From Celeribacter ethanolicus (GTDB lineage: Bacteria; Pseudomonadota; Alphaproteobacteria; Rhodobacterales; Rhodobacteraceae), in assembly GCF_001550095.1 (NCBI RefSeq), contig NZ_LRUC01000020.1, positions 62,001 to 126,000 of the forward strand: 64,000 bases of DNA. The letters are read 5' to 3'. Shown here one piece after another: positions 31,389 to 47,819 of the stretch (the stretch's first letter is position 1; every line of letters starts with the position of its first letter). A program made the position numbers and the translations under genes. The notes beneath the pieces were generated by a model. That model made no database searches. It was not told the DNA's origin and was given only the letters and a program-made list of their open reading frames with translations.

Positions 31389-32237
31389 GTGCGTTTTTCC
31401 GGGATCATAACCTTGACCGTCGCCCTCTTATCGGGGGCGGCGGGTTTTGCCGGGGAGAGCGCAACAGCACCCGCGCGTGTCGTCTCGGTCAATCTCTGCA
31501 CCGATCAGCTCGCCATGATGCTCGCGGCTCCCGGCCAGCTCGTCTCGATCACCGCCTATTCCCGCGACCCGAACTCGTCGGTGATGGTCGCAGAGGCGGA
31601 AAGCTATCCGGTCAATCACGGTCAGGCCGAAGAAATTTACCTCTTGAACCCCGATCTGGTCGTCGCCGGTCAGTACACTGCGCGGGCCACCGTCTCCATG
31701 CTGCGGCGTCTCGGCATCGAGGTCGTCGAATTCGCCCCCGCGCGCTCCCTCGATGACATCGAAGCCAACGTCCTGAAGATGGGCGCAGCCCTCGGGCGCG
31801 AAGAGGAAGCACGCGAGATCGCCGACGATTTTGCCCGACGCTTGTCCGACATAAGTCCGACGCAAATCCGCCCCACCGAAGAGCGCCCCACAGCCGCCAC
31901 CTATGCCGCCAATGGCTACAGCACCGGCGCCGAAAGTCTCGCAGGAGAGATCATCGACGCCGCCGGGTTCCATACCCTGGCCACGGAGCTCGGCCTGCCC
32001 CATGGCGGCTTTCTGCCCCTTGAGGCGTTGATCATGGCCGATCCCGATCTGGTGATCTCGGGCCGGGGTCAGGCTGGCTATGCCCGCGCCGAGGAGGTGC
32101 TGCATCACCCGGCCCTGACGCAACTGACCGGCGGTCACATGGCGATGCAGGATCGCGACTGGGTCTGTGGCCTGCCCGCCGTGATCGGGGCCGTCGAGCG
32201 GCTGCGCGAGGAGCGCGAGAGGTTGGAAACCCAATGA
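31389..32237 (+). CDS. btuF: cobalamin ABC transporter binding protein
   Basis: A 282-residue helical-backbone periplasmic binding protein of the BtuF/FecB class. It starts at a GTG directly after the btuB stop and has a signal peptide (LTVALLSGAAGFAGES). VVSVNLCTDQLAMML opens the binding fold. It carries cobamide from BtuB to BtuCD. It overlaps btuC by four bases. Class members also carry siderophores; the riboswitch and cbiZ decide for B12. Confidence 0.88.
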   Translation: MRFSGIITLTVALLSGAAGFAGESATAPARVVSVNLCTDQLAMMLAAPGQLVSITAYSRDPNSSVMVAEAESYPVNHGQAEEIYLLNPDLVVAGQYTARATVSMLRRLGIEVVEFAPARSLDDIEANVLKMGAALGREEEAREIADDFARRLSDISPTQIRPTEERPTAATYAANGYSTGAESLAGEIIDAAGFHTLATELGLPHGGFLPLEALIMADPDLVISGRGQAGYARAEEVLHHPALTQLTGGHMAMQDRDWVCGLPAVIGAVERLREERERLETQ

Positions 32238-33220
32238 AATATCCCGTTCTGATCACAGCTCTGAGCCTGCTTGTCGCCCTGCTTTTCGCGCTGTCCCTGG
32301 TTGTCGGGGTGATCGAAGTCGGCCCTCTGGAAAGCCTCGCAGCACTCGTGCGCGACAGCGACGGGCCGCTCAGCATGGTGATGCGCGAAATCCGTTTGCC
32401 GCGTGCGTTTCTGGGCATCATGGTCGGCGTGAGCCTCGGCCTGTCGGGCGCGGCGATGCAGGGCTATCTGCGCAATCCGCTGGCCGAACCGGGCGTGATC
32501 GGCATCTCCGCCTCCGCCGCCCTCGGCGCCGTCATCGCGCTGCAAAGCGGCTTTTCCGCCCTCTTCGCCCTCGCCCTGCCGCTCTCCGCCCTCGCGGGGG
32601 CTGCGGCTTGCGTGCTCCTCATCCTGCTCCTCGCCGGACGCGGTGGCGGCACGCTGTCGCTCATTCTCGCGGGCATCGCGGTCTCGGCCCTCGCTTCCGC
32701 ACTTACGGCCCTCGTGCTCAACCTCTCGCCCAACCCGTTTGCCGCCAACGAGATCGTCTTCTGGATGATGGGCTCGCTCGCAGACCGCTCCTTCCTGCAT
32801 GTCTGGACCGCCCTGCCGGTGATGACCGTGGGCTGGCTGCTGCTATCGCTCACCGGTCGCGGGCTCGACCGGCTGACCCTCGGCGAGGAAGCCGCCGCCT
32901 CCATGGGCGTCAACCTCAGACGTCTGCGCCTCATTCTCGTTGCGGGCGTCGCCGCCTCCGTCGGAGCCGCCACCGCCGTCGCAGGCGCCGTGGGCTTTGT
33001 CGGCCTGGTCATCCCGCATATTCTGCGCCCTCTTGTCGGAGCCCGACCGGCGCGGCTTTTGCTCGCCTCCGCTCTGGGCGGCGCCGCTCTCGTTCTGGCT
33101 GCCGATGTTGCGGTGCGGCTGATCCTGCCGGGGCGCGATCTGAAACTCGGCGTCCTGATGGCACTGGTCGGCGCACCGGTGTTCTTCCACCTGATCTGGC
33201 GCATGCGGGGGCAGCCATGA
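32234..33220 (+). CDS. btuC: cobalamin ABC transporter permease
   Basis: A FecCD-family inner-membrane permease of 328 residues with about ten hydrophobic segments. Family motifs include IRLPRAFLGIMVGVSLGLSGAAMQGYLRNPLAEPGVIG near the N-terminus, read as overlapping short motifs, and GFVGLVIPHILRPLVG near the end. It forms the translocation channel and overlaps btuF and btuD by four bases each. Confidence 0.9.
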   Translation: MKYPVLITALSLLVALLFALSLVVGVIEVGPLESLAALVRDSDGPLSMVMREIRLPRAFLGIMVGVSLGLSGAAMQGYLRNPLAEPGVIGISASAALGAVIALQSGFSALFALALPLSALAGAAACVLLILLLAGRGGGTLSLILAGIAVSALASALTALVLNLSPNPFAANEIVFWMMGSLADRSFLHVWTALPVMTVGWLLLSLTGRGLDRLTLGEEAAASMGVNLRRLRLILVAGVAASVGAATAVAGAVGFVGLVIPHILRPLVGARPARLLLASALGGAALVLAADVAVRLILPGRDLKLGVLMALVGAPVFFHLIWRMRGQP

Positions 33221-33954
33221 GCCTTTTGACCGTCCAAGACCTCACCGTCCGGCGCGGTTCCCGTGCCACGCTCGATCAGGCGTCTTTCTCGATCGCACCG
33301 GGCGAATTCGTCGGCCTCATCGGCCCCAATGGCGCGGGCAAATCGACGCTCCTGCGGGCCGCTCTCGGGTTGATCCCGGCTGCGGGACGGAGCTCTCTGG
33401 CCCGCCTTTCCCCCGCCGCGCGCCCCAAGGCCGCAGCCTGGCTGCCACAGGCGCGCGAGATCGCCTGGCCGGTCAGCGTCGCGCATCTGGTTTCTCTGGC
33501 GCAGAACGAAAACCAGAACGCCCCCGAGGTCATCGCCGCCCTCAACCGCATGGACCTCATGGCCTATGCCCAGCGCCCCGCCACCGGCCTGTCGGGCGGC
33601 GAACAGGCCCGTGTGCTGATCGCCCGCGCGTTGGCGCAGGACACCCCGCTTTTGCTCGCCGACGAACCCACCGCCGGGCTCGATCCAGCGCATCAGATCG
33701 GCACGATGCAAACCTTTGCCACCCTCGCGTCTGAGGGCCGGGGCGTCATCGCCTCGCTGCACGATCTGGGGCTTGCCGCGCGCCATTGCACCCGGTTGAT
33801 CGTGATCTCCGAGGGCCGGATCGTCGCCGATGGCGCGCCGCGCAATGTACTGACCGAGACGCTTCTGGCCGAGGTGTTTGCGATCCGCTGCCTGCTCTCG
33901 GACACGCCCGAGGGGCTTGTGGTGCAACCGCTCGCCCAGCTATCAAAGCCCTGA
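33217..33954 (+). CDS. btuD: cobalamin ABC transporter ATPase
   Basis: A 245-residue ABC ATPase with Walker A (GPNGAGKST), signature (LSGGEQARVLIARALA), Walker B with catalytic glutamate (LLLADEPTAGLD) and switch histidine (SLHDLGLAAR). It powers BtuC. The start at 33217 overlaps the btuC stop; the same frame stays open far upstream but that part is antisense to no protein signal and out of frame with btuC. Confidence 0.92.
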   Translation: MSLLTVQDLTVRRGSRATLDQASFSIAPGEFVGLIGPNGAGKSTLLRAALGLIPAAGRSSLARLSPAARPKAAAWLPQAREIAWPVSVAHLVSLAQNENQNAPEVIAALNRMDLMAYAQRPATGLSGGEQARVLIARALAQDTPLLLADEPTAGLDPAHQIGTMQTFATLASEGRGVIASLHDLGLAARHCTRLIVISEGRIVADGAPRNVLTETLLAEVFAIRCLLSDTPEGLVVQPLAQLSKP

Positions 33955-33955
33955 C

Positions 33956-34645
33956 ATGGCTGACATCTTCCTCACCCCGCATCTCACCCGCCCCTGGCTG
34001 ATCGCCGATCTCGGCGCGCCGATGCGGGTCTTGAGCTTTGCGCCCTACCGCCCCGGCTTCGTCACCGCGCGACACATCGTCTGGCGCGAGTTGAAGAATG
34101 CCGATCTGCCGGTCGGGCTCGAGGTAGATGACTGGATCGCTGCCGAGATGACGCGCAACGGACATGCCGATGCCATCGGTCTTCTGACCTCGCGCAACAT
34201 CACACGTTTCAAACGCACCGAAGCGACGGTCGAGGACGTGCGGGTCGCCGCTCTTGCGACCGTGGGCCTCGGCAATGCCGAACGCATCGGCGCGCGTACG
34301 CCCCGTGACTGGGCGGTCGAAAGCTACGGCACGATCAATGTCGCCATCCAGACCAACACCCCGCTGCGCGAAACCGCCCAGATCGAAGCGCTGACCATCG
34401 CGGCGGAGGCCCGCACCGCGGCGGTGATGGACGCGGGCCTGCGTTTGGCGGGCGGGCCGGTGACCGGCACGGGAACCGATTGCCTTGCGCTTGCCGCCCC
34501 GGCCGGACAGGGCGCCTATGCCGGGTTGCATACCGCCTTGGGCGAAGCAATCGGCCAGGCCGTTTACAGCGCCGTGTCGGAAGGCGCCGCCGAATGGGTG
34601 CGGGAAAATCCTCTGATGATGCGCAAGGTGTTCAGTGGCGCATGA
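33956..34645 (+). CDS. cbiZ: adenosylcobinamide amidohydrolase
   Basis: A 229-residue CbiZ-family enzyme, which cuts the amide that holds the aminopropanol and nucleotide loop to the corrin ring, giving adenosylcobyric acid. This lets the cell rebuild imported cobamides with its own lower ligand. Conserved segments include APYRPGFVTARHIVWREL, GLLTSRNI, TVGLGNAERIGAR, GTINVAIQTN and GGPVTGTGTDCLALAAP. It begins one base after btuD, so it is part of the B12 operon. Fused or adjacent cbiZ and btu genes are known in Rhodobacteraceae. Confidence 0.92.
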   Translation: MADIFLTPHLTRPWLIADLGAPMRVLSFAPYRPGFVTARHIVWRELKNADLPVGLEVDDWIAAEMTRNGHADAIGLLTSRNITRFKRTEATVEDVRVAALATVGLGNAERIGARTPRDWAVESYGTINVAIQTNTPLRETAQIEALTIAAEARTAAVMDAGLRLAGGPVTGTGTDCLALAAPAGQGAYAGLHTALGEAIGQAVYSAVSEGAAEWVRENPLMMRKVFSGA

Positions 34646-34654
34646 AGGCCCCGC

Positions 34655-35719
34655 TTAACCCCGCCCTCCCCTGAACCACGACAGGAGCGGCACATGCAAC
34701 CGCTGCATTCGTGTTTCGAGAAGGTGCAAACGCGCCTCGTCCAGCTCGAACAGATCGGCAATCCGTTCCAATGACCCTACGTTAAGCGGGCGTTCCGCGA
34801 TCCGCTCATAAGCCAGCCCCGCGAAGATCACGCCATAGCGGTCGCGCAACCAGAGCAGATCGGTCGAGCTTTCATCCAGATCGGCCGCAACCTCCGGCAG
34901 GAGCTTCGGCCTCTGCGCCCCGGGCACGCGTTTATCAGCGGTCAGAAGGCGTTTGCGATAGCGGTTTCTCGCACGCAGCACGACATTGTCCTGACCGGCG
35001 AACCGCACGCGCTGCACCTGCTGCATCAGATGCGCGGCCTCGGCGCCCATGCTCTCGTTGACGCGCGCGCCTGTCTCGCCCCCCTGCCCACTCAGAGCAA
35101 GTTGCGTGGTCAGGAAATCGGTCACGACATCGCCCTGCACAAGCGCGTCCCGATCATAAGCGCGCACCGAAACACGACCGGGAAAGGCCGCCTCCCAAGT
35201 CTCGAGCGTCTCCCGAACCCGCATCGGGGCAAGCGGTGGAAGTATTGCCGAATGCCGGACACGTTGCAGCGCGAATGAGGCATAATGTTTCGAAGGCTGG
35301 CGCAGATAGGCCACGACCTGCACCTCGGAAAAGGTCTCCCCTAATCGCGCCAAAAGGGTCTCGCGCCCCTTGAGGCCAAGGCGCACAAAAAGATATTCGG
35401 TCGAGAGCACGACGGTCTCGGGTGCGGTTGCGGCGATTTCCGCCTCGAGGGCCTGCCATTCCGTCTCGAACAGCCGATCGGCCTCGGCCTGCACGCGCCC
35501 GATCCGGTCGATCAAAAGACGCGGCCCGTGGTTCGCGAAATCGAGCGGCAGGACGAGGAAACCGTGCGACGTGCCCTTGCCGGGATAGAGCACCCCCTGC
35601 GCCCGCAGAGAAGACCGGGACGCCGCAAGCCAGCTCTGAAGCGCGGTCGAACCCGTCTTCGGCATTCCGACATGCAACACCAGTTTCGGCTTCGGCTTTG
35701 AAGGAGACGTCATGGGCAT
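34655..35719 (-). CDS. sulfotransferase-family protein
   Basis: A 354-residue protein that begins LVLHVGMPKTGSTALQSWLAAS, the PAPS 5'-phosphosulfate-binding loop of cytosolic-type sulfotransferases. A downstream VVAYLRQPSKHYASFALQR resembles the 3'-phosphate-binding segment. The acceptor cannot be predicted. It follows the TRAP permease by 33 bases on the same strand and is probably the last gene of that operon. A second, unrelated-length sulfotransferase lies at 41652-42296. No PAPS synthesis gene is in the window. Confidence 0.75.
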   Translation of the reverse strand: MPMTSPSKPKPKLVLHVGMPKTGSTALQSWLAASRSSLRAQGVLYPGKGTSHGFLVLPLDFANHGPRLLIDRIGRVQAEADRLFETEWQALEAEIAATAPETVVLSTEYLFVRLGLKGRETLLARLGETFSEVQVVAYLRQPSKHYASFALQRVRHSAILPPLAPMRVRETLETWEAAFPGRVSVRAYDRDALVQGDVVTDFLTTQLALSGQGGETGARVNESMGAEAAHLMQQVQRVRFAGQDNVVLRARNRYRKRLLTADKRVPGAQRPKLLPEVAADLDESSTDLLWLRDRYGVIFAGLAYERIAERPLNVGSLERIADLFELDEARLHLLETRMQRLHVPLLSWFRGGRG

Positions 35720-35752
35720 ACCCTGAACGGAACGTCGGACATCTGACCCGCC

Positions 35753-37666
35753 TCAGACCTTGCCGAGCCGCGCCGCCCAGCCTTTCAGGACCAGCAGACC
35801 GCAGAGCGCGAGGATCGCTGCCGCAACGGCGACGGACACAGCCCCAAGAGGATCGAACACGGCACAGACCGCCAGAGCCAGAGAGACGGCAGCCAGACCC
35901 GTGGTCAGTCGGCTCTCCCCGGCCAGAAGCGCATCCACCGCCAGAATCGCGACGAAGGCACCGACGAGGCTGGCAGCCACGGTCCAGAGATCGCCTACGA
36001 GCAGGAGACCCGGCGCATAGACGAAGAGGAACGGCAGGACATAGATGATCCAGCCGAACCGCATCGCCGCAAAGGCGGTTTTCGTGAAGGACTCGCCGGA
36101 GATGCCGCTGGCCGCAAGCGCCGCGAAGGCCACGGGCGGGGTGATCATCGAGACCACGCCGAAATAGAGCACGAACAGATGTGCCGCCATCAAGGGCACG
36201 CCAAGCGCCACCAGCCCCGGTGCCAGAAGTGTGCCGACGATGATATAGACCCCCGTCGTCGCCATCCCCGCGCCCAGCACCATGGCGGACAATGCCGTCA
36301 GGATCAGGGACAGCAGGAGGCTGGTTTCGCCGATCTCCCGAATGCCGAGCGTCAGGCTGACATCGAGCCCGGTCATCCCCAACACACCGAGCACCACCCC
36401 AAGGGCCGAACCCGCGATCACCAGCGAAGCGGTGGTCTTATAGGCGCCCTGGGCGGAGGACCTGATCCGGCGCCAAAGCTCGGCAGGCCCATGCAGAATC
36501 CACCCCGAGAGCAGCGCCGCCGCGATGCCTGCGATGCCCGCGAGTTCCGTCATCCTGTCGCCCTTGAACATCACCGTCACGATGGCGATCACCGGCAGAA
36601 GATGCCAGAGATCGCGCCAGGTCAGGTCCGGCATCTCGTCCTGTGCGGTCGTGGCGGACGGTTCGGCCCCCTCGGGCAGAGGCGCGCCCTCGATCCGCGC
36701 GGCCATCCAGCTCGCCTGCACGAACATCACCGTGTAACAGAGGATCGCCGGAACCGTTGCCGCAAGCGCGATGCTGCCATATGACAGCCCGGTCAGATCG
36801 GCCATGAGAAAGGCGGCGGCCCCCATCACCGGCGGGGTGATCTGACCCATGGTCGAGGACACCGCCTCGATCCCGCCCGCCTTGGTGCCCGGAAGGCCGA
36901 AGCGGCGCATGGCCTGAATGGTAAAGGCGCCGGAGGTCAGCACATTGGAGCTGGCGCTGCCGGAGACCATGCCGAAAAGACCCGAGGAGACAATGGTCGC
37001 CTTGATCGCCATACCCTTGCCGCGCCGCGACATCTTACGGGCAAGCGCGTCGATCGCCGCCGTGCCGCCGGAGATCTCATACACCGCACCGAAGAGAATA
37101 TAGATGGTCACCGTGCCTGCGATCACCCCGAGCGTGCGACCGAGAAAGCCGTTGCCGCCGAACACCAGATAGACCGTGTAACGTTTCAGATCGACGGGCG
37201 CGGCGTCGAACGGCGCAGGGAAGAACTGCGCCAGATAGCCGACACCGAACACGCCGAACAACAAGAGCCCCATCATCGGGCCGCTGGCCAGGAACGAGGC
37301 CAGCAGGGTGACTGCGATCAACAGCACCGAGACGGTGAGCAGCCTTGGCGTCGGCATGATGAACAGCGCCGCCTCGCCCGCGAAATGGCGAAACAGGAAG
37401 AGCCCGACACCAAGTGCGGCGCAACCGGCGAGGAAGAACCCCGAACGCGGCAGAGCGGCGGACAGGTTGCGCGCCCGGAGCCACAGGGTGAACCCGAGCG
37501 CGAGCGCAAGCTCGACCGCAAGAAACTGGTCGACGACAAGATTGGACCGCAGCCAGTCGAACGGGTCAATCGCCCAGAGACATGGCAACAGCACAACAGC
37601 GAGACCGGACAGGGAAGTCAGCCCCCGAAGCCCCCTGTCCGAAAGTGTCCTGCGATCGGTCGCCAT
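35753..37666 (-). CDS. TRAP transporter fused permease (TAXI type)
   Basis: A 637-residue fused membrane protein combining the small and large TRAP permease subunits: about four N-terminal membrane segments followed by the 12-segment DctM-like part (VFGGNGFLGRTLGVIAGT, GLFGMVSGSASSNVLTSGAFTI, GQITPPVMGAAAFLMADLTG, VSMITPPVAFAALAASGI). The fused form pairs with TAXI-type binding proteins, one of which is encoded five bases upstream. It imports an organic anion driven by an ion gradient. The substrate is unknown. Confidence 0.92.
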   Translation of the reverse strand: MATDRRTLSDRGLRGLTSLSGLAVVLLPCLWAIDPFDWLRSNLVVDQFLAVELALALGFTLWLRARNLSAALPRSGFFLAGCAALGVGLFLFRHFAGEAALFIMPTPRLLTVSVLLIAVTLLASFLASGPMMGLLLFGVFGVGYLAQFFPAPFDAAPVDLKRYTVYLVFGGNGFLGRTLGVIAGTVTIYILFGAVYEISGGTAAIDALARKMSRRGKGMAIKATIVSSGLFGMVSGSASSNVLTSGAFTIQAMRRFGLPGTKAGGIEAVSSTMGQITPPVMGAAAFLMADLTGLSYGSIALAATVPAILCYTVMFVQASWMAARIEGAPLPEGAEPSATTAQDEMPDLTWRDLWHLLPVIAIVTVMFKGDRMTELAGIAGIAAALLSGWILHGPAELWRRIRSSAQGAYKTTASLVIAGSALGVVLGVLGMTGLDVSLTLGIREIGETSLLLSLILTALSAMVLGAGMATTGVYIIVGTLLAPGLVALGVPLMAAHLFVLYFGVVSMITPPVAFAALAASGISGESFTKTAFAAMRFGWIIYVLPFLFVYAPGLLLVGDLWTVAASLVGAFVAILAVDALLAGESRLTTGLAAVSLALAVCAVFDPLGAVSVAVAAAILALCGLLVLKGWAARLGKV

Positions 37667-37671
37667 CTCGC

Positions 37672-38625
37672 TTACTTGATCTGGCCGTGTTCTTGATAAA
37701 AGGCCATCGCCGCCGGGTGATAGTCGAGACCGATGTCGACATACATCGCCTCGGGATCGAACCAGTCGAGGCTGGCCACGGACTCGACCATCGTCGCCTT
37801 GCCCTCGTAGAGCCCCTTGAGCAGCGCCGTCACCGTCGCATCGTCCTCATCGGCATGGGTGTAGATGAAATAATCGTACTGAAGGATCTGGGTCGGTGCC
37901 TTGATCGTCGTCAGCGCGGGCTGCGGATCGAGCATCTGAAGACTCGCCACCGGCATGATTTCCCTGATCTTCACGGCGGCATCCTCGCCCCCCCCGAGTT
38001 GCAACGCCCGCAGACCGCCCACGTCACGCGACACCTGTTCGTCGCGCGGCGTGCCGATCACATGGATCAGAACATCGGTATCTCCCGCCACGAACGCCTC
38101 CGCCATGGCGGTGAAATTCGCGACCTGCACCCGTTCGACATCGTCATAGCTGAGCCCGCCCGAGGCCAGCAGCGCCGTGATCAGCGCCTCGCCGGTCACG
38201 GCCTGAACGAAGCCTGCGGGCACTCGTTTGCCTTTCAAATCGGCGACCGAGGCAATGCCGCTGTCTTCGCGCACGCCGAGCGTCATACGCATCGGCAGAA
38301 GCCGCGCCACAAGCCGCAGGTTGTCCATCTTGTGGTCCTTGAACCGGCCTTCGCCGAGCATCGCCTGACGCACCGCGATGGCGTTCTCGAGACCGAAATC
38401 GACCTCGCCCGCGTTGATGAACGGGCTAGCCTGGCTGGTGCTGTCATAGGGCTGCGGCCGCAGATCCATGTCGCTGTCTTCATTGGCCGCCTTGCTGATC
38501 GCGAGCGCGTAATTGTAGGTGCTCGATCCCTGGCCAGCGGACGCAATGGTGCTGGGTTCTGCGGTGGCAGCCATGGGAACGCAAATCCCCAATGCCATCA
38601 GCGCGGTGACGACTTTCCTGAACAT
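37672..38625 (-). CDS. TAXI family TRAP binding protein
   Basis: A 317-residue periplasmic solute receptor. It has a signal peptide (LMALGICVPMAATA) and then the family start SAGQGSSTYNYALAISKAAN. Other segments typical of TAXI proteins are GEVDFGLENAIA and VADLKGKRVPAGFV. TAXI proteins take up glutamate or other carboxylates, but family membership alone does not name the substrate. It is the first gene of the transporter operon, divergent from the carrier-thioesterase gene. Confidence 0.9.
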   Translation of the reverse strand: MFRKVVTALMALGICVPMAATAEPSTIASAGQGSSTYNYALAISKAANEDSDMDLRPQPYDSTSQASPFINAGEVDFGLENAIAVRQAMLGEGRFKDHKMDNLRLVARLLPMRMTLGVREDSGIASVADLKGKRVPAGFVQAVTGEALITALLASGGLSYDDVERVQVANFTAMAEAFVAGDTDVLIHVIGTPRDEQVSRDVGGLRALQLGGGEDAAVKIREIMPVASLQMLDPQPALTTIKAPTQILQYDYFIYTHADEDDATVTALLKGLYEGKATMVESVASLDWFDPEAMYVDIGLDYHPAAMAFYQEHGQIK

Positions 38626-38784
38626 CTGAATCCTCCCCTGAGAGGTCTGTTGTTGACGTTAGGGAAGATGCAACAGGCCGTACAAACAAATCAACGACAA
38701 TATCCCCCGTTCCGAACTTGCCTGCGAATTTGACATCCGTTAGCCTCCGAAACCATCAGAACAGGCCAGAGGCGGGGGGTCGCA

Positions 38785-38817
38785 ATGGCGAAACGGTTTG
38801 GCGCAGGACATGCTTGA
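38785..38817 (+). CDS. possible 10-codon upstream open reading frame
   Basis: An ATG with a GGCGGGGGG sequence five bases upstream opens a 10-codon frame, MAKRFGAGHA, whose stop codon overlaps the ATG of the next gene by eight bases. The larger gene has no good ribosome binding site of its own, so translational coupling is plausible. This is an inference from spacing only. Confidence 0.3.
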   Translation: MAKRFGAGHA

Positions 38818-39904
38818 TACGACCGCGCGCGATGCGCTCCGGCTCGCTTATGACTTCGCTCCGCCTGAAACGGAGCGCGAACGTCTGGTCTGTGGCATTT
38901 TCTCCGATGTCATGAAGGTCGCTCCCGTCGGTCTCGACGACGATTTCTACGATCTCGGCGGCGATTCCCTCATGGGCGAACAGATCAGCCTGATGATTCA
39001 GGAAAAGACCGGCAAGGATTTTGCCGTCTCCGCCCTCTTCGACTACCCCACGCCCCGCCTCATCTCCGAATTTCTGCAAGACGGCAAGGCCGAGATCGCT
39101 CCGAACTCGCATCCGATTTTCGTCGTGCATGGCAAGGGCGGCTACACCGCGCCGCGTCCCGAATTCTATGCCGGTCTTTCGCAGGGCACGAAGCTCGTGA
39201 TGTTCGAGCTTCCCGGCATCCGGACGCGCACGGACTATCCGCGCGACATTCCCGCCGTCGCCGCGGCCTATGTCACGCAGATCATGCGTGACTACCCAAC
39301 CGGGCCGGTGCTGCTCTCCGCCTTCTGCGCTGGTGGCCTGATCGCCATCGAGATGATGGCCCAGCTCAAAGCCGCCGGGCGCGAGGTGCCCGGTCTCGTG
39401 CTGCTCGACCCCAGCGCGCCGCGCCGCGTGCTCGACCGGCACAGGCTTCAGTCGAAGATCGAGACCGGCAACGCCAATACGCTCGACCGGCTGCGGCATC
39501 GGCTGCGCTATACGCCCCGCACGCCGAACGCATTCGACCGTCTTCGGGACCGGATCGAACGTGGCCTGCGCCTGCTCGCCACTCTGGACGATGCGCGCAA
39601 GGCCTCGCGGAAAAAGCAGGGCGCGTTCTGGAAATACCGGGACGCCGGGTTTCGCATCCTGCCGCGTGCCAGCCTGATCGTTGCCTATCGTTTCGCATGG
39701 CCCGCCCCCTACACCGGCAAGGTGACGATCATCGCCTCGCAGCAACGCGCCAAGGCCTTGGCCTCCGAAACCTCGGTCTGGCAGCGCTTCATCCCGAACC
39801 GCACCGTCGAGGTGCTGTCGGAAACCCATGGCGACATCGGTCAGGCCAATGCGGGCGCCGTGGCCGCGCGGATGGAACAGCTTCTGCTGGAACCGCTGGC
39901 CTGA
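38810..39904 (+). CDS. carrier-domain/thioesterase protein with Cys nucleophile
   Basis: A two-domain protein of about 364 residues. Residues 10-85 are a peptidyl/acyl carrier domain with the phosphopantetheine serine in LGGDSLMG (Ser53). Residues 100-360 are an alpha/beta hydrolase thioesterase of the NRPS type (PIFVVHGKGG, then VLLSAFCAGGLIAIEM). The nucleophile position that is normally serine in GxSxG is cysteine (Cys173); an aspartate in LLDPSAP and a histidine in SETHGDIGQ could finish a triad. Cysteine at this place occurs in some NRPS thioesterases that make strained or amide products. The start is uncertain: ATG 38810 is used, with TTG 38798 as an alternative. The facing gene encodes an adenylate-forming ligase that could load the carrier. 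Confidence 0.82.
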   Translation: MLDTTARDALRLAYDFAPPETERERLVCGIFSDVMKVAPVGLDDDFYDLGGDSLMGEQISLMIQEKTGKDFAVSALFDYPTPRLISEFLQDGKAEIAPNSHPIFVVHGKGGYTAPRPEFYAGLSQGTKLVMFELPGIRTRTDYPRDIPAVAAAYVTQIMRDYPTGPVLLSAFCAGGLIAIEMMAQLKAAGREVPGLVLLDPSAPRRVLDRHRLQSKIETGNANTLDRLRHRLRYTPRTPNAFDRLRDRIERGLRLLATLDDARKASRKKQGAFWKYRDAGFRILPRASLIVAYRFAWPAPYTGKVTIIASQQRAKALASETSVWQRFIPNRTVEVLSETHGDIGQANAGAVAARMEQLLLEPLA

Positions 39905-39914
39905 AACTCCCGCC

Positions 39915-41408
39915 TCAGCTTTCGAGCGAGGCGCGCAGTTCCCGGCGCAGCACCTTCCCGTTGGTGTTGCGCGGCAGGCTGTCAAGGAAGATGAATTTTC
40001 GCGGCCGCTTGTCGGGCGCAAGCTGCACCCGGCACTCCGCAGCGAGATCGCCCTCCGTCACGCCGGATTTGGCCACGACGAAAGCGGCGATTTCTTCGCC
40101 GAACTCGACGCTGGCAAAGCCGGTGACGGCGACATCCGCAACACCCGGGACGGCCTGAAGCACCGTTTCGATCTCCGCCGGATAGACATTGGCACCGCCG
40201 CGAATGATCATGTCGGAGCTGCGCCCGACCACGGTCAGGAAACCGTCCGTCGAGACTTTCGCAAGATCCCCGGTATAGGCCCAGCCGTCGCGGATCTTGT
40301 CGCCGGTGTCGCGCGCACGGTTCTTGTACATGCCCTCGGCCATGCCATGGCTGCGGACCCGCAGCGCGCCGACCTCGCCCGCAGGCAGCGGGGTGTGGTC
40401 CTCATCGACAATCTCGAGCCGCACGGTCGGCAGGACCCGCCCGTCGGTGTGGCTGTGGCTGGCGACATCCGCCCCGGCGAGCACCGAACAGGTGCCGGAC
40501 ACGGAGGAGGAAAAGCAATGCAGGAACCCCGGCGTCAACTCCTGCCAGGCCCGCAGCTTGTCATGCGCCTCCATGCCGGAGCCGCCGCAATAGAGCATTT
40601 TCAGATCGGGCATCAGCGGCTTTCCGGTCCCGTTCGACAGGCCGAGCATGGCCTTGACCGTGGCGGGAACCGCGAAGAGGAAGGTGATGCCCTGGGAGTT
40701 CACCTTTTCGATCAGTTCGTCGGCCGCGAAGATCGGCGGATGGAAACACACGGTCGCCCCGCGCATCAACTGCCCGATGGTATGGTTGCGCGAGGCGGAG
40801 AAGGACAGCGGATAGGCGTTGAGGAATTTGCCTTCGAAAGGATAATGCGCCTCGAACCCGTATCCGAAGGAACGCAACTGGATGGTCCGGTGACTTGCGA
40901 CGATGCCCAGAGGCCGCCCTGTCGTCCCGGAAGTCAGGGAGATGAGCGCCGGGTGGCTTTCGGTCCCTTTGCGTTCGACAGGAGCATCCGAATGGCGGGC
41001 GGCGGTGTCTTTCCACCCCGCATCGCAGGCGATCGACCGATAGGCACCATTCGACAGGTCCCGATCTTCAAGAAGAGCTGCCAGGTCGAACTCTTCGCTC
41101 AGACGCCCCCGCTCATCGGCCCGGTTGCGGAAATCTATCGGCACGGCCACCGCATCGAGCATCCAAATCGCCACCATCGCGAGCACCGTATCGACACTGT
41201 CACGCAGCACCAGCCCGACCTGATCGCCCGCTTTCAGCCCTTCGGCCTGAAACTGCCGCGCCCATTGCGCGGAGGTGGCCACGAGCCCGGCGAAGGACAC
41301 GCTGCGCGCACCGGAAACGAGGGCGGGACGTGCTCCGTACCGCGCCCCGAGGGCATGAAACGTGTCGGCGAGATTGCTGTGGTTTTGCTGTGACATATGA
41401 GGGTCCAT
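39915..41408 (-). CDS. adenylate-forming ligase (acyl-CoA synthetase/A-domain type)
   Basis: A 497-residue ANL-superfamily enzyme. The AMP-binding P-loop ALISLTSGTTGRPLG, the RSHGMAEGMYKN region, the hinge and aspartate in YTGDLAKVSTDGFLTVVGRSSDMI and the C-terminal catalytic lysine in NTNGKVLRREL are present. It activates a carboxylate as adenylate and passes it to CoA or a carrier thiol. It is convergent with the carrier-thioesterase gene with only ten bases between stops. Loading of that carrier is an inference from neighbourhood. The start could be the ATG four codons further in. Confidence 0.87.
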   Translation of the reverse strand: MDPHMSQQNHSNLADTFHALGARYGARPALVSGARSVSFAGLVATSAQWARQFQAEGLKAGDQVGLVLRDSVDTVLAMVAIWMLDAVAVPIDFRNRADERGRLSEEFDLAALLEDRDLSNGAYRSIACDAGWKDTAARHSDAPVERKGTESHPALISLTSGTTGRPLGIVASHRTIQLRSFGYGFEAHYPFEGKFLNAYPLSFSASRNHTIGQLMRGATVCFHPPIFAADELIEKVNSQGITFLFAVPATVKAMLGLSNGTGKPLMPDLKMLYCGGSGMEAHDKLRAWQELTPGFLHCFSSSVSGTCSVLAGADVASHSHTDGRVLPTVRLEIVDEDHTPLPAGEVGALRVRSHGMAEGMYKNRARDTGDKIRDGWAYTGDLAKVSTDGFLTVVGRSSDMIIRGGANVYPAEIETVLQAVPGVADVAVTGFASVEFGEEIAAFVVAKSGVTEGDLAAECRVQLAPDKRPRKFIFLDSLPRNTNGKVLRRELRASLES

Positions 41409-41651
41409 CTGGCGAGGTGTCGAGGCTTGGCATCGGAACGGGTGACTTCGGGGAAGCCTGCATCAGAAAACACAGCTCTCCCTGCCGGGGAAACAGATTT
41501 TCGCAAAATGCACAGATTTTCCGGACTTCCTGCGCCAGCCGGTCAAGACCCGGGCACGAAACGGCTCCGGAAACGCCGTGACAAGCCTTCGGGCGCACGG
41601 TATCCTGCGCAGTGAAATCTCCAGGAAGCACCTAGGAAAGCACCCGGCGGC

Positions 41652-42296
41652 ATGCCCTTATATCACATTAACGGCAAGCTGATCCTGTTCATGCACATTC
41701 CGAAAACCGGCGGAACATCGGTCGATCACTGGCTGCGCAGTCTCGGCACCCCCATCCTCGGCTCCATTGGCGCAGAAATCGACTGGCTGCCCTGTGTGCC
41801 GCAACATCTGCACGCCGAAGCTCTTGCGAAACTCGTGCCGCATGGCGCCCCCGATTTCGCCTTTGCCATCGTGCGGCATCCGGAAAAGCGGATGGTCAGC
41901 GAGTTCTTTCATCGTCACAAGGACAAGCGCACCCGACAGATCGGCCCCTATCTGCGCAGGCGGTCTTTCGATGAGATGACGACGGGGCAGATGAGCCGCT
42001 ATTTCGAAACCTGGCAGGACCGCGCCTTCGCCAAGTTTCGCAAATACCCGTTCTGGGACGACAACCATGTCCGCCCGCAAAGCGCCTTCACGAACTGGCC
42101 GGGCCTGCATGTCTTCCGTTTCGAAGACGGGCTGCAAAGCGTCTACGACCGGGTCACCGGGGAGCTTGGCCTGCCCCGTGTCGGCGAGGTGCCGCGCCTG
42201 AACACCGGCCGCAAACATGCCCTCGTGCTGACCGAAAGGGCCAGGACCCGCATCCGCGCGGTCTATGCCCAAGATTTCGACACCTGGTACAGTTGA
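41652..42296 (+). CDS. sulfotransferase family 2-like protein
   Basis: A 214-residue protein with the PAPS-binding loop FMHIPKTGGTSVDHWLRSLG near its N-terminus and AIVRHPEKRMVSEFFHRHKD as the likely 3'-phosphate-binding strand and helix. Proteins of this type often sulfate surface glycans. It is shorter than many relatives. It lies between an adenylate-forming ligase and a glycosyltransferase, so a sulfated glycoconjugate is a possible product. No membrane anchor is visible. Confidence 0.8.
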   Translation: MPLYHINGKLILFMHIPKTGGTSVDHWLRSLGTPILGSIGAEIDWLPCVPQHLHAEALAKLVPHGAPDFAFAIVRHPEKRMVSEFFHRHKDKRTRQIGPYLRRRSFDEMTTGQMSRYFETWQDRAFAKFRKYPFWDDNHVRPQSAFTNWPGLHVFRFEDGLQSVYDRVTGELGLPRVGEVPRLNTGRKHALVLTERARTRIRAVYAQDFDTWYS

Positions 42297-42380
42297 GTCC
42301 GCGACGCCCAACGGCTTTCCACCAGACTGCAAAACACACTTGCCAAACGCCTGTGTGACGTTCTAATTGCATAAGATTGC

Positions 42381-42393
42381 TGACGTAACGTCA
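42381..42393. promoter_or_regulatory. perfect palindrome upstream of the GT4 gene
   Basis: TGACGTAACGTCA is a perfect 13-base palindrome in the 198-base gap between the sulfotransferase and the glycosyltransferase genes, about 100 bases before the latter. The regulator is unknown. Confidence 0.4.
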
Positions 42394-42494
42394 ATCTCTT
42401 CAGGTCCATTGAGACGCACAGCTCGTCAAAACCTGCCGGACGGTCGTCATACTATTTCGCGACGACACGACCAAACCCGTGGGGACACCGGGAC

Positions 42495-43622
42495 ATGAAA
42501 GCCTGCATCGCAACCGGCACCTATCATGCGGCCGGGGAGACCTTCGTCAATCGGCATATCGCGGAGCTGTTCGGCGGCAATACCTGTGTGCTGTTCAACA
42601 CCGCCAAAGGCGACAACCCGTTGCAAAAGCCTAACATGTCCCGGCGCAACCGGTTCGAGGCCTCGCCACGCAAACTCTGGCAAACGCTGCGAGAGCTGCC
42701 GCGCTATGGCACCACCTCTTTGCCGCACGGCAAGGCGCGGTCCCGTGTCGAAGCCTTTCTTCGCGATCAGAAACCCGATCTCATTCTCGCCGAATTCGGC
42801 CCCGAAGCCGTCGCCTTGACCCCTCTCGCCCGTGCGCTCGACCTGCCCCTTTTCGGGTATTTCCGCGGCTACGACGCCTCGAAACTGCTGCGCGATCCGG
42901 GCAAACGGCGCGCCTATCGCAAATGCATGCCCCACTGGCACGGCGTCTTCGCAGTTTCGCAATTCCTGCTCGACAATCTCGCGGCCCATGACATCGCCCA
43001 TCCGAGAAGCGCGGTCATCCCAAGCGGCGTCAACACCGAGCTGTTTCATCCCGCCGAGAAACGATCCGCGAGCTTTCTCTACGTCGGACGGCTGATCGAA
43101 AAAAAAGCTCCCGACCTGGTGCTGCGGGCCTTCCTCGACGCCGCCACACGCGTTACGGACGCCCATTTGACGATCATCGGAGACGGCACGCTTTCCGCCC
43201 CCTGCCAGGCTCTGGTCGCAGCGCGCGGCATGCAAGATCGCGTCACCTTCACCGGGGCCCTGCCCCATTCGGAGGTCTGTACCCTGATGTCCCGCACAGC
43301 CATTTTGCTGCAACATTCCGTGACCGCGCGAAACGGCAACACCGAGGGCCTGCCGACTTCGATCCAGGAAGCCATGGCCTCGGGCATGGCCGTGCTCTCG
43401 ACCCGCCACGCGGGCATCCCCGAAGCGGTGGTCGAGGGGGAAAACGGTCTCCTGGTGACGGAACATGACGAAGCAGGCTTTCGCGACGGCATCGTCGCGC
43501 TGGCCAACGCCCCCGAGACGGTCGCCCGCATGGGGGCAGACGGACGCAGACGGGCGGTTGCACAATTCGACAACCGAACTCTTCTGGCAGCGCTGGAGGC
43601 ACGGCTCACCGGCTGGTTGTAG
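42495..43622 (+). CDS. GT4 family glycosyltransferase
   Basis: A 375-residue GT-B-fold retaining glycosyltransferase of family 4. The C-terminal nucleotide-sugar domain has FLYVGRLIEKKAPDLVLRAF, LTIIGDGTL, VTFTGALPHSEV and the ExxxxxxxE region EGLPTSIQEAMASGMAVLSTRHAGIPEAV, read as overlapping motifs. It is cytosolic or membrane-associated. Sugar and acceptor cannot be read from sequence. The neighbours suggest a role in the same pathway as the sulfotransferase and acyl genes, but they do not overlap. Confidence 0.9.
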   Translation: MKACIATGTYHAAGETFVNRHIAELFGGNTCVLFNTAKGDNPLQKPNMSRRNRFEASPRKLWQTLRELPRYGTTSLPHGKARSRVEAFLRDQKPDLILAEFGPEAVALTPLARALDLPLFGYFRGYDASKLLRDPGKRRAYRKCMPHWHGVFAVSQFLLDNLAAHDIAHPRSAVIPSGVNTELFHPAEKRSASFLYVGRLIEKKAPDLVLRAFLDAATRVTDAHLTIIGDGTLSAPCQALVAARGMQDRVTFTGALPHSEVCTLMSRTAILLQHSVTARNGNTEGLPTSIQEAMASGMAVLSTRHAGIPEAVVEGENGLLVTEHDEAGFRDGIVALANAPETVARMGADGRRRAVAQFDNRTLLAALEARLTGWL

Positions 43623-43760
43623 ATCGCAGCGGCCAGCACACAGAACTTGACGGATGTGGCGGGCTTCGCAAAGCTGCCGTGACATCACCGACTAGGACGC
43701 CCGCATCCCGCCCTGCACGTACCTTTTCGCCATGTTTTACGATCACGCAGGAGACCCCAT

Positions 43761-44006
43761 ATGGATGACACCCAGATCAGAACCGCCATTCTCGACGCCG
43801 TGGCCAAGGCCGCGCAAGTCGACCAGGCAACCCTGACCGACACGACGCCTCTGGGCGCAGGCGGGCTTGGCCTCGACTCCATCGCCATGCTGGACCTCGT
43901 GCTGGACCTCGAGGACGTCACCGGCCTGCAATTGCGCAGCGAAGCGCTGGGGGGTGACGATCTGGCAACGCTGGGAGGGCTGGTCCGATATATGTGCTCT
44001 CTCTGA
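43761..44006 (+). CDS. acyl carrier protein
   Basis: A free-standing 81-residue carrier protein with the phosphopantetheine serine in GLGLDSIAML, and the usual four-helix profile. AGGAG precedes the ATG. It is not the housekeeping AcpP, which is more acidic and is encoded with fab genes. The next gene begins inside its last codons (13-base overlap), which indicates coupled translation with the acyltransferase-like protein. Confidence 0.88.
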   Translation: MDDTQIRTAILDAVAKAAQVDQATLTDTTPLGAGGLGLDSIAMLDLVLDLEDVTGLQLRSEALGGDDLATLGGLVRYMCSL

Positions 44007-44848
44007 TCCACCGGCCCAAGCGCTACCTCGCGGCGGAGCACGCTCGCGCCCCCGGCACGCTCGCCGACAAGCTCACCCAGTTGCGCGAGATGGCCAAGGA
44101 GCGCCCGCCGCATCCCAGGCTTTGGAAACGCGCGAAACATTTCTGCCCGGGGACCCGGTCCGAGCGGCGCGACTGGTGCGCCCGGGTCTGGTGGGGGATC
44201 GCGGCGGGCGAATTGCTCCGCGTCCACCTCTATGACCGCGCCAGCCGTGCCCAGGCGATGGATCTCGTTCTCCCGCCGGACCTCTCCGCGCTCGATCCCG
44301 CCAGAACCGGGCGCGGTGCCATTCTGGCCGCCGCGCATCTCGGCCCGCCGAAATTCGCGATGAATCTGGTGCTCGACCGCTTTGCCAAGCCCCTGATCGT
44401 GACCAACACACAGGACATGCCGGACTGGCAGCGCGCCGAAGAGGGGGGATTTCTCAACCCCCGCGACCCTCAGGCCCGGGCACAAATCCTGCTCCGGGGC
44501 GCCGTGCAACTGCGTCGCGGCGGCGTGTTCTTTGCCGCCCCCGATGGCAAGCAGACCCGGGACACACTCGGCGTCGAAGGCTTCGGTCAACACTGGGAGT
44601 TCTCCGTCGGCCTGCCCGCGCTCGCCCGGAAGCTCAAGGCCGACAGCTTCGTGTTCCTGGCGCTTTGGGAGGGGGAGCGGATCGCCCTGCGCTGCACCCC
44701 GATCACAGTACCGGCGGAGCTTGCCCCTGAAGACCATCACCGGGCCTGGATCGAGGCGTACTGGCGCAGCCTGTCTTCCGTGATTGCAAGCTCCCCCGAA
44801 AATCTCCGCTTCCTCGCCCCGCCGCTTCGCAAGGAGTTCACCCGATGA
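43994..44848 (+). CDS. LpxL-like acyltransferase with altered active site
   Basis: A 284-residue protein resembling lysophospholipid/lipid A acyltransferases (LpxL/HtrB fold), starting at GTG within the ACP gene. The expected catalytic motif is H-x4-E or H-x4-D; here it reads AAHLGPPKF with His115 and lysine at position 120 where the acid should be. A later segment, GGVFFAAPDGKQTRDTLGVEGFG, fits the second conserved block of the family. It lacks the N-terminal membrane helix of LpxL. Co-translation with an ACP and a ligase suggests it moves an acyl group from that ACP, but the altered motif leaves activity in doubt. Confidence 0.7.
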   Translation: MLSLIHRPKRYLAAEHARAPGTLADKLTQLREMAKERPPHPRLWKRAKHFCPGTRSERRDWCARVWWGIAAGELLRVHLYDRASRAQAMDLVLPPDLSALDPARTGRGAILAAAHLGPPKFAMNLVLDRFAKPLIVTNTQDMPDWQRAEEGGFLNPRDPQARAQILLRGAVQLRRGGVFFAAPDGKQTRDTLGVEGFGQHWEFSVGLPALARKLKADSFVFLALWEGERIALRCTPITVPAELAPEDHHRAWIEAYWRSLSSVIASSPENLRFLAPPLRKEFTR

Positions 44849-46236
44849 TCTGGCAGCGTTTTCTCGACACCGCCGCACGCCATGCCACGGCCCCCGCCCT
44901 GATCGGCGATCAGGGCACCTTGAGCTACGCGGAGCTTGTCGCCCAGGCAAAGGCCGAAGCACACAAACTGCCGGACCGTCCCACCGGCGCAGCGCCTGCC
45001 CGTGTGCTTCTCGTGTCGGCGGAGCCGGTCACACTTCTGGTGCGGGTGCTGGCCTGCTGGAGCAAGGGGCTGGTCCCCGTCCTGCTGCGCGACGGGCAAA
45101 CCCCCGAGAGCCTTGCGCGCATCCGCGAGATCGCCACCCCCGTCGCGATCCTCTCCGACGAGACGCCCGCAACCCGCCTCCCGGACAGCCCGCAGGACCG
45201 TCCCCCTTTCGGTCCGCGCGACGAGGCGCTCGTGATCTGCACCTCCGGGACCACCGGGATCCCCAAACTCGTCGCGCTTTGCGCCGAAGGGGTGGCGACC
45301 ACGGCCCGGGCCATCGTCGAAGACCTCGGATTTGCCGAGGGGGACATCATCGCGGTCGCCACGCCGCTGACCTATATGTACGGGCTGATGGGGGCCTCGG
45401 TGAGCGCCCTGCTGTCCGGGGCTGCGCTGCGCATGTTCCTGCCCGGTCAGCCGCTGACCATCGTGCAGGCGGCGATCCGGCGCGAAAACATCACGGTTTT
45501 GCAGGGTCCGCCCTCGCTGATGCGCCTGTTTCTGGCCTATTGGAACGGCACGCCCTTCCCCTCCGTGCGCCTCGTGACCACCGGCGGCGAATACATGAAC
45601 GCGGATCTGGTCGACAAGCTCTCGCAAGCCTTTCCCCAAAGCGCCTTCCGGCTGGTCTATGGCATGACCGAGGCCGGACCGCGCATCTCGCACATGCGCA
45701 CCGTCACCCATCACGGCGCGGGCCTGCTGGTCGGGCGTCCGTTCGATCATTTCGACTGGCGCATCGACCCGGTGGCGCAGGAGGGGCTGCCGGATGGGGC
45801 CGGCCGTCTTGCGCTGCGCGGGCCGAGCGTCTGTCTGGGCTATATTCAGCCCGGCAACCAGTATGAGGGCGTCGGACCCGACGGTTTCTTCCGCTCCACC
45901 GATCTGGTCTGCGACCGCGATGGCCAGTTGGTGTTCCTCGGCCGCTACGACCGGCTGTTCAAGACCGGCGGCAAGCTCGTCAACCCGCTCGAGATCGAGG
46001 ACCTGCTGATGCGGCATCCGGCGGTGCATGACGCCGCCTGCCACGCACAGGAGCACCGCCTGCTGGGGCTGGTCCCGGTGGCGGAAGTGGTGCTGGAAAG
46101 CGGGGCAGACACCGATCTTGCGGCGCTGAAGCTGCATTGTTCCACCCTCGAACACCATGCCAGGCCGCATCGCATCGACATCGTCCCCGCGCTCGAAATG
46201 GCCGCGTCCGGGAAAAGGGCCGGTCGCAAGCCATGA
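44845..46236 (+). CDS. adenylate-forming ligase for the neighbouring ACP
   Basis: A 463-residue ANL-family enzyme, short for the family. It has ALVICTSGTTGIPKLVAL, the TTGGEYMNADLV region, LVYGMTEAGPR, RSTDLVCDRDGQLVFLGRYDRLFKTGGKLVNPLEIEDLL (overlapping motifs) and a C-terminal SGKRAGRKP with the likely catalytic lysine. It overlaps the acyltransferase-like gene by four bases, so ACP, acyltransferase and ligase form one translational unit. Loading of a fatty or aryl acid onto the ACP is the simplest role. Confidence 0.85.
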   Translation: MIWQRFLDTAARHATAPALIGDQGTLSYAELVAQAKAEAHKLPDRPTGAAPARVLLVSAEPVTLLVRVLACWSKGLVPVLLRDGQTPESLARIREIATPVAILSDETPATRLPDSPQDRPPFGPRDEALVICTSGTTGIPKLVALCAEGVATTARAIVEDLGFAEGDIIAVATPLTYMYGLMGASVSALLSGAALRMFLPGQPLTIVQAAIRRENITVLQGPPSLMRLFLAYWNGTPFPSVRLVTTGGEYMNADLVDKLSQAFPQSAFRLVYGMTEAGPRISHMRTVTHHGAGLLVGRPFDHFDWRIDPVAQEGLPDGAGRLALRGPSVCLGYIQPGNQYEGVGPDGFFRSTDLVCDRDGQLVFLGRYDRLFKTGGKLVNPLEIEDLLMRHPAVHDAACHAQEHRLLGLVPVAEVVLESGADTDLAALKLHCSTLEHHARPHRIDIVPALEMAASGKRAGRKP

Positions 46237-46537: not shown

Positions 46538-47644
46538 TCAAAAGGACGGCAGGCAGACACAGAATGTCGTGCCCTCACCGCTTTGCGTCTCAAACGAAAT
46601 CGTGCCGTTCATCTGTTCGACCAGCGTGCGCACGATGTTCAGCCCCAGACCGGAACTGCTGGCACGTTTGTTGTTGTCCCAGCTCGCCTTGGTGAAGCGT
46701 TCGAAAAGCGTGTCGCGCAATGCCATGGGAATGCCATCCCCATGGTCGCGGACGAACACCGCAATCTGCGCATCGGCTTTCTGCGCCCAGATTTCAACGG
46801 ACTGACCGCGTTCGGAGGCCTTGACCGCGTTCGAAAGCAGGTTGGACAGAATCTTGGTCAGTTGCGCCGGCACGGCCCGAACCTGAAGCGCGGCATCGGT
46901 CGGGCGCATTTTCACATCGACTCCGTGATAGGCGCCATAACCCTGATGGGTCGCCACCAGCCCCTCGAGCAGACTTGCGACCCCGATGTCCTCGCTCTCG
47001 GGTTTCGGCCCCGCCTGAGCGCTTTCATTGAGATCGAGGATTTCCTGAATGAGTGCAAGCATCCGGTCGCTGTTGGCCCCCGCGATGTTCAAAAGCGATT
47101 GCGCCTTGTCCGACAGCGGCCCGACCAGCCCGGATTTCATCAGGTCCAACGCCCCCTTGATGCTGGTCAGAGGGGTGCGCAATTCATGGGTGATGACGGA
47201 ATTCACTTCCCTGCGCAGACAGTCCGCGCTTTCCTGTTCGGTTTCGAAATGGAACATCGCAACGAAATATCGGTTGCCCTGCTCATCCGATGTCGCCATC
47301 ACGCGTCCGTTCAACCGTTTGTCGCCGAAGGACGGATGGGTGCGGAAGGCCGCACTTCCGGTGGTTTGCGCCTGATCCAGAGGACCGCCCTCGGCCATCA
47401 GATCGTGAAAAAAACCGCCTTCGCAGAGATGTTCGGCCGCCCGTGCCGCCGATCCATCGCCCAGCATGTCGCGGGCTGCGGCGTTCATGTAATGCGGCGC
47501 CTCCATCGTGCGCTCGAACACGAGCACGGCATCGGACATCCCGTCCCATAGCGCCCTGTTCAGCTCGGAGCCGGCCTGTGCGAAGCACGCCGCATCCTCG
47601 CCGAACGCATAGCCAGCCATACCGTATTTGAGCTTACATGTCAT
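46538..47644 (-). CDS. soluble PAS histidine kinase
   Basis: A 368-residue sensor kinase without membrane segments. The N-terminal 140 residues form a PAS-like domain (SDAVLVFERTMEAPHYMNAAARDMLGD). The dimerisation helix has the phospho-accepting His153 in VITHELRTPLTS, and the ATPase domain shows LSNLLSNAVKA, FVRDHGDGIP and SSGLGLNIVRTLVEQM. It has no receiver domain. With the larger kinase, the Hpt protein and the two receiver proteins that follow, it forms a signalling locus. Confidence 0.9.
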   Translation of the reverse strand: MTCKLKYGMAGYAFGEDAACFAQAGSELNRALWDGMSDAVLVFERTMEAPHYMNAAARDMLGDGSAARAAEHLCEGGFFHDLMAEGGPLDQAQTTGSAAFRTHPSFGDKRLNGRVMATSDEQGNRYFVAMFHFETEQESADCLRREVNSVITHELRTPLTSIKGALDLMKSGLVGPLSDKAQSLLNIAGANSDRMLALIQEILDLNESAQAGPKPESEDIGVASLLEGLVATHQGYGAYHGVDVKMRPTDAALQVRAVPAQLTKILSNLLSNAVKASERGQSVEIWAQKADAQIAVFVRDHGDGIPMALRDTLFERFTKASWDNNKRASSSGLGLNIVRTLVEQMNGTISFETQSGEGTTFCVCLPSF

Positions 47645-47819
47645 ACGATTACACCCGAACTGTTCAAAACCGCTGGTTCAGGATGACCCGTTACCGCACG
47701 CTTTTTAGAATGCCCTTCACACAAAGATAATCCTGCAGGTGAATTTAAACCTGGCTATGGTTAATTTGTGATAAAAATGTGTCCCGCGAAAAATAATTAC
47801 AATCCAGACGTGTAATTCC

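Follow-up and report, generated by a model that had tools for sequence, protein, structure and literature searches.

We analysed a block of ten genes at positions 34655-46236 of a 64,000-nucleotide stretch of Celeribacter ethanolicus DNA (contig NZ_LRUC01000020.1; the whole stretch is called the window), in which each gene was assigned to a class by open reading frame (ORF) and family searches. We regard the chances as about even that the product of this block is a surface glycolipid or glycan bearing both sulfate and acyl groups, with a free-acid-using cassette of three genes at the core of the block: an acyl carrier protein (ACP), an acyltransferase of the LPLAT superfamily and an adenylate-forming ligase, LigB. 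These three genes form a separate module within the block, which the original prediction for this region had overlooked. Its guess of an acylated, sulfated glycolipid as the putative product gains support from the kinship of the acyltransferase to VexE, from polysaccharide neighbourhoods on plasmids and from sulfotransferase and family 4 glycosyltransferase (GT4) domains in two metagenome-assembled genomes (MAGs). The family searches also placed the two adenylate-forming ligases, carrier-thioesterase, free ACP, GT4 and adjoining TRAP transporter that had been proposed, at the coordinates given below.

Results

A separate ACP-LPLAT-LigB cassette

The cassette genes all lie on the forward strand. 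The first encodes a free ACP (43761..44006; PF00550, E = 4.6e-8), whose phosphopantetheine serine, Ser40, is present in 7/7 aligned rows; the second, a VexE-type LPLAT acyltransferase (43994..44848; NF011721, the VexE model, E = 3e-11); and the third, LigB, a presumed acyl-ACP synthetase (44845..46236; PF00501, E = 5.4e-43). With the starts used, the ACP gene overlaps the LPLAT gene, which in turn overlaps that of LigB. A tree of 84 ligases placed all 12 LigB rows in a single group (100/100), and each of them has Lys141 and Lys457; the deeper placement is unsure because of long branches.

Contigs were scanned with a LigB alignment and the best 80 of 342 related stretches were kept. LigB was found at 42-70% identity in ten loci, and at 32% in L139, which is on the same contig as L113. 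LPLAT and ACP profiles detected an LPLAT in 10 of the 80 loci and an ACP in 9 of those 10 as well, and every locus with both had the order ACP-LPLAT-LigB, directly upstream of the ligase. These nine are L114 (the second Celeribacter), L115, L118, L119, L120, L121, L122, L123 and L139; the tenth, L117, starts inside the LPLAT. The remaining 70 loci had neither LPLAT nor ACP, including one with a true LigB (L116). Since many of these rows went into building the two profiles, the matches of cassette members to them follow by construction; exceptions are L120 and L139 for the LPLAT, and L115, L120 and L121 for the ACP, whose sequences were outside the profiles. L119-L121 are near-identical and are counted as one lineage.

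The cassette order is kept in Gemmobacter, Anderseniella and Planctomycetota-labelled MAGs, where the names are those of the depositors and the 'Kuenenia' records (G+C 66-68%) may be misnamed. The contigs scanned belong to another collection than the family genomes discussed below, and the cassettes in it include those of Gemmobacter and of a Loktanella MAG. In L113, from another alphaproteobacterium, an ACP, a LPLAT protein with tetratricopeptide repeats (TPR) and LigB are joined. Among 294 genomes of the phylum of L118, the only strong match was in L118's own genome, with three others at 32-38 bits.

Two further features of these loci were noted. TRAP transporter genes occur less than 10 kb from the cassette in L113 (14976-18821) and L117 (9665-11065), which could be chance since TRAP transporters are common. 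The solitary LigB orthologue of L116 (285-5253) lies between a DegT aminotransferase and an FGE-like PEP-CTERM protein.

The cassette acyltransferase is related to VexE

The second cassette protein had been described as LpxL-like. The 284-residue window protein gave no Pfam match at E <= 1, but its residues 9-273 align to positions 376-643 of the VexE model NF011721 (42 bits, against a cut-off of 1200 for the whole protein). Both the window LPLAT and 6/6 further TPR-less cassette LPLATs given matched only this C-terminal part of VexE in NCBIfam (E <= 0.01). An LPLAT fold was predicted for the window protein (model pLDDT 87.4), and 14/14 PDB matches at E <= 0.001 were to LpxM or PatA (Foldseek E 2.4e-8 to 1.7e-6), with identities of 14-19%. 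The acyltransferase is a relative of VexE that has no TPR domain.

According to the available part of its description, VexE is the ACP-dependent UDP-GlcNAc acyltransferase of the Vi capsule, which places a beta-hydroxyacyl group on C-6, has a Tyr at the acid position of the H(X)4D/E motif, and uses H466 and D532 (PMC9597891). The cassette proteins resemble it in this respect: His115, Asp184 and HxGPP are kept in 9/9 aligned LPLAT rows, whereas the H(X)4D/E acid is found in 0/9, the position being Lys or His. From the spacing, 69 and 66 residues past the His, respectively, Asp184 would correspond to D532, and by analogy the block LPLAT may be expected to carry out ACP-dependent transfer. Unlike VexE, it lacks the N-terminal TPR domain and is accompanied by its own ACP and ligase, and capsule polymer and export genes are absent from the ten genes of the block. 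The cassette LPLAT of L113 has TPR repeats, as does VexE; among the cassette proteins tested with Pfam, they were found in this one only. Two candidate identities were rejected: that of an ordinary lipid A acyltransferase, given that the window protein has no Pfam match, and that of a Vi-type capsule locus, given the missing TPR domain and the lack of a polymerase or exporter among the ten genes.

Used as queries, the LPLAT rows of the two Celeribacter species matched 3/385 class genomes and 6/398 phylum genomes, the window's own included; the other class and phylum matches were frames of 609-736 residues. A plasmid search with the LPLAT gave no match. Such long frames with a VexE-kind LPLAT inside them occur in other Pseudomonadota genomes at L109, L110 and L112, of which L109 alone was tested for, and found to have, TPR repeats. 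Next to these three, neither an ACP nor a LigB was matched, save for a weakly similar ligase in L110.

A glycosyltransferase, a sulfotransferase and a probable second one lie in the block of the cassette

Two forward-strand genes precede the ACP gene: one for a GT4-type glycosyltransferase (42495..43622; PF00534, E = 2.5e-29; PF13439, E = 9.7e-10; 72% identity to its Celeribacter orthologue in L070, described below) and one for a sulfotransferase with a PKTGGTS loop, ST2 (41652..42296; VRHPEKRMVSEFF). ST2 matches PF03567 above the cut-off (E = 2.3e-9, 38.2 bits versus 22), and two motifs, which we take to be the 5' and 3' motifs for binding 3'-phosphoadenosine 5'-phosphosulfate (PAPS), are both conserved in its orthologue. 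The second sulfotransferase of the original prediction, ST1 (34655..35719, reverse strand; L070 orthologue 54% identical), is a probable PAPS sulfotransferase: its score against PF13469 is below the cut-off (E = 0.014, 16.1 bits versus 27), so that its identity hangs on the loop MPKTGS, presumably a PAPS-loop-like motif. ST1 had no PDB sequence match at E <= 1, and its fold model (pLDDT 38) was unusable and was not used; profile comparison aligned it to ST2 over 24 residues around the loop only, and to the sulfotransferases of L118 and L115 over 20 residues only.

One plasmid region was fetched for relatives of each of GT4, ST2 and ST1, and all three contained surface-polysaccharide genes; the best plasmid relative of ST1 lies near a nucleotide-sugar dehydrogenase and glycosyltransferases. 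In two Planctomycetota MAGs a Sulfotransfer_3-GT4 fusion is encoded close to the cassette, about 1.1 kb (L115) and 4.5 kb (L118) from the ACP. A second sulfotransferase-like gene is near the cassette in both, over the cut-off in L115, and L118 also has a GT2. It had been noted that no PAPS gene is present. This is true of the locus but is no anomaly and means little, because APS kinase is encoded elsewhere in the genome (G000:C43:74516-74974) and was present in 13/13 genomes examined. A missing supply of PAPS was rejected on these grounds.

Several results weigh against a sulfated, acylated glycan as the product. In NCBIfam, LigB scores best against a CoA-ligase model, at 150 bits (cut-off 476), and the ACP-ligase model AmcH gives it 90 bits (cut-off 370). 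The TPR-LPLAT of L113 has no VexE match at E <= 0.01, and no recognised glycan exporter or polymerase is found among the ten genes. The second sulfotransferase of L118, at 23.9 bits, is below the cut-off of 27, and the sulfotransferase-GT4 proteins of the Planctomycetota MAGs fell outside the ST2 and GT4 groups at E 1e-8; what recurs is therefore the enzyme classes, and not an inherited set. Finally, neither sulfotransferase nor glycosyltransferase was found in the flanking ORFs scanned at L123 (8 ORFs), L122 (4), L119/L121 (9), L117 (5) and L116 (3), so that the link between the cassette and these enzymes is not obligatory.

The absence of glycan genes from the scanned flanks of most cassette loci would also fit acyl transfer to something other than a sugar, for instance a lysolipid or an amino lipid, with incidental sulfotransferase and GT4 neighbours. 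The LPLAT superfamily does include enzymes acting on phospholipid precursors (PMC9597891, available part), and in the portion of PMC9386255 at hand an ACP-synthetase pair serves sphingolipids in Rhodobacteria. However, VexE is the closest named family of the LPLAT, and the closest folds, PatA and LpxM, both act on glycolipids according to the former source. We consider a non-sugar acceptor very unlikely.

The block is shared by two Celeribacter species

The full set of ten genes recurs in collinear order in another species, Celeribacter sp. PS-C1 (genome G016, Scaffold23; locus L070), at 54-81% identity, and the block is thus more than a chance grouping. General conservation across the Rhodobacteraceae, against which the original prediction was to be checked, was not found. 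Orthologues of the carrier-thioesterase fusion (CPTE) were present in 2/20 genus genomes (E <= 1e-20), the window's own and G016, and LigB orthologues in the same two only among 61 relatives that include these 20; neither was found in the other 18 genus genomes searched. Further LigB matches in the 61 relatives were at most 36% identical, among the matches listed, and the window LPLAT was found in 1/394 family genomes, its own.

In the window the block adjoins the gene for CbiZ, while in G016 CbiZ is on another contig than the block, and ST1, TRAP and TAXI had no match in the stretch fetched after it. The separate CbiZ and the patchy spread suggest that the block is mobile. No empty insertion site was found, because in G004 the two flanks of the block, the B12 uptake genes and a histidine-kinase pair, are on separate contigs; the data accordingly do not show a simple insertion at a conserved site.

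The first of these flanks (29532-34645) is a vitamin B12-type uptake set of TonB receptor, periplasmic binding protein, FecCD permease, ABC ATPase and CbiZ. CbiZ occurs in 13/20 genus genomes, and the uptake set was apart from the ten-gene block in all four neighbourhoods fetched. The other flank (46538-50660) holds a tandem pair of histidine kinases, kept in G004, G010 and G011, which are genomes lacking a CPTE orthologue. Elsewhere in the window's genome (G000), four copies of an AMP-binding enzyme with equal scores lie near the ends of contigs C15, C47, C48 and C49 (L001-L004), suggesting a repeated element at assembly breaks.

LigA, CPTE and the TRAP transporter are a Celeribacter extension

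The remaining four genes comprise, on the reverse strand, a TRAP transporter fused permease (35753..37666; TIGR02123, E = 2.4e-107, above the cut-off; 78% identity to L070) and its TAXI solute-binding subunit (37672..38625; TIGR02122, E = 7.6e-36, above the cut-off; 81%); on the forward strand, CPTE, a fusion of a carrier of the non-ribosomal peptide synthetase (NRPS) type to a thioesterase (38798..39904; PF00550, E = 1.3e-13; PF00975, E = 5.5e-13; 73%); and, on the reverse strand again, LigA, an adenylate-forming ligase of FadD/MenE type (39915..41408; PF00501, E = 2.5e-48; 80%). LigA, CPTE and the TRAP transporter are a Celeribacter extension of the block. The gene directions suggest four transcription units: TAXI-TRAP-ST1, CPTE, LigA and ST2-GT4-ACP-LPLAT-LigB.

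CPTE, the true start of which may be the ATG at 38810, has the carrier motif GGDS with Ser57 and a thioesterase Cys177, Asp204 and His344, all three of the latter being present in both Celeribacter rows. A Cys nucleophile was found in 6/12 compared thioesterases, including the orthologue and two near-identical plasmid copies (13 loci were given, of which L047 yielded no row). A first contig scan with CPTE gave no relative. Of 20 plasmid thioesterase rows listed out of 105, the one with the lowest E-value forms the end of a Roseovarius NRPS and likewise has the Cys.

On plasmids of Roseovarius pelagicus (L106 7885-19922) and Pseudohalocynthiibacter (L107 1-5938), a similar stretch carries an NRPS, annotated in L106 only, the Cys-thioesterase of which resembles that of CPTE. 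Next to the NRPS are a flippase gene and one of the acylneuraminate cytidylyltransferase type, and genes for Tni transposition are also close by.

The carrier and thioesterase domains of CPTE raise the question of a small secondary metabolite. LigA and CPTE would then act as a split A-T-TE NRPS-like module and LigB with its ACP would provide an acyl group, giving a glycosylated, sulfated ester, amide or lactone. In keeping with this, the Cys nucleophile recalls that of the ObiF thioesterase, which forms a beta-lactone in the part of PMC6668435 available, and the Roseovarius enzyme shares it. Such a Cys is, however, not rare in the thioesterase comparison, and no CPTE orthologue occurs in the 10 other LigB genomes, of which some are incomplete MAGs and 5 gave weak CPTE matches in NRPS-sized frames only. 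As originally predicted, neither a ketosynthase nor a condensation domain was matched by family searches in the ten proteins; an aryl polyene, a type II polyketide synthase or a full NRPS cluster was rejected on these grounds, and the missing condensation domain also counts against the split module. An Asp of the Roseovarius amino-acid adenylation domain is replaced by Met in LigB and Ser in LigA. We take this Asp (A4) to mark amino-acid recognition, and under that rule its loss from both ligases fits acyl or aryl acids. Overall, we think a secondary metabolite unlikely.

The extension might alternatively have nothing to do with the cassette. The block would then consist of two co-travelling units, one for carboxylate uptake and activation (TRAP-TAXI, LigA, CPTE) and one for glycan acylation and sulfation (ST2-GT4-ACP-LPLAT-LigB). 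The gene directions do split the block, the cassette is seen alone in distant taxa, and in both plasmid regions fetched for LigA relatives (of 822 records) the relative shares an operon with amidohydrolase and transporter-binding genes. Against this, two species keep all ten genes side by side in the same order, with the identities given above, despite the different placement of CbiZ, and two unrelated units are in our view improbable.

Discussion

Our preferred reading, in which the block directs synthesis of a surface glycolipid or glycan that is both sulfated and acylated, can be set out as a pathway, every reaction of which we infer. LigB would adenylate a free carboxylic acid and load it onto its own ACP. 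The VexE-type LPLAT would then transfer the acyl chain to a hydroxyl of a sugar, His115 serving as the base with help from Asp184; by analogy with VexE, the acceptor is probably a UDP-hexosamine or the sugar of a glycolipid. GT4 would add a sugar, and ST2, probably with ST1, would sulfate the product using PAPS made elsewhere in the cell. In Celeribacter only, TRAP-TAXI may import a carboxylate for activation by LigA and transfer or release by CPTE, which is the least certain part of the scheme.

Several parts of the block resemble known systems. The AcpR/AasR pair, as described in the available part of PMC9386255, shows that a lipid pathway, that of rhodobacterial sphingolipids, can be supplied by an ACP together with its dedicated acyl-ACP synthetase. 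By description, the block is similar in encoding an ACP with the phosphopantetheine Ser next to a ligase with core motifs, a pair that by analogy may channel free acids into one lipid pathway; it differs in lacking a serine palmitoyltransferase and in the coupling of the ACP-LigB pair to an LPLAT. In the part of PMC9597891 at hand, PatA acylates C-6 of mannose and LpxM is a secondary lipid A acyltransferase. The block LPLAT shares their predicted fold, and both act on glycolipids, but its identity to them is low and the acid is missing at the H(X)4D/E position. Similarly, CPTE has the carrier-thioesterase order and the Cys, Asp and His of NRPS Cys-thioesterases such as ObiF (PMC6668435, available part), but stands alone, with no condensation or adenylation domain in its chain.

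A bolder version, which we put forward tentatively and think rather unlikely, is that a portable lipid-anchor cassette puts free-acid chains on surface glycans in widely separated bacteria. Among VexE-type systems it would be the first to carry an acyl-loading pair of its own, and in Celeribacter a second acyl route through the stand-alone Cys-thioesterase would lead to a sulfated, doubly acylated glycolipid. Searches of open-licence papers, which give no proof of absence, found no report on Celeribacter and sulfotransferases and none joining acyl-ACP synthetase, sulfotransferase, glycosyltransferase and glycolipid; nor was the gene combination of the block found among the matches listed, judged by title and the start of the abstract.

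If our reading is correct, VexE-type acylation of surface sugars would reach beyond Vi-like capsules, and a compact cassette would carry out sugar acylation using free acids rather than intermediates of the fatty-acid synthase. The cassette would also offer a signature to search for and an in vitro test with three proteins, and it may lead to sulfated glycolipids not yet described from marine Rhodobacterales and Planctomycetota.

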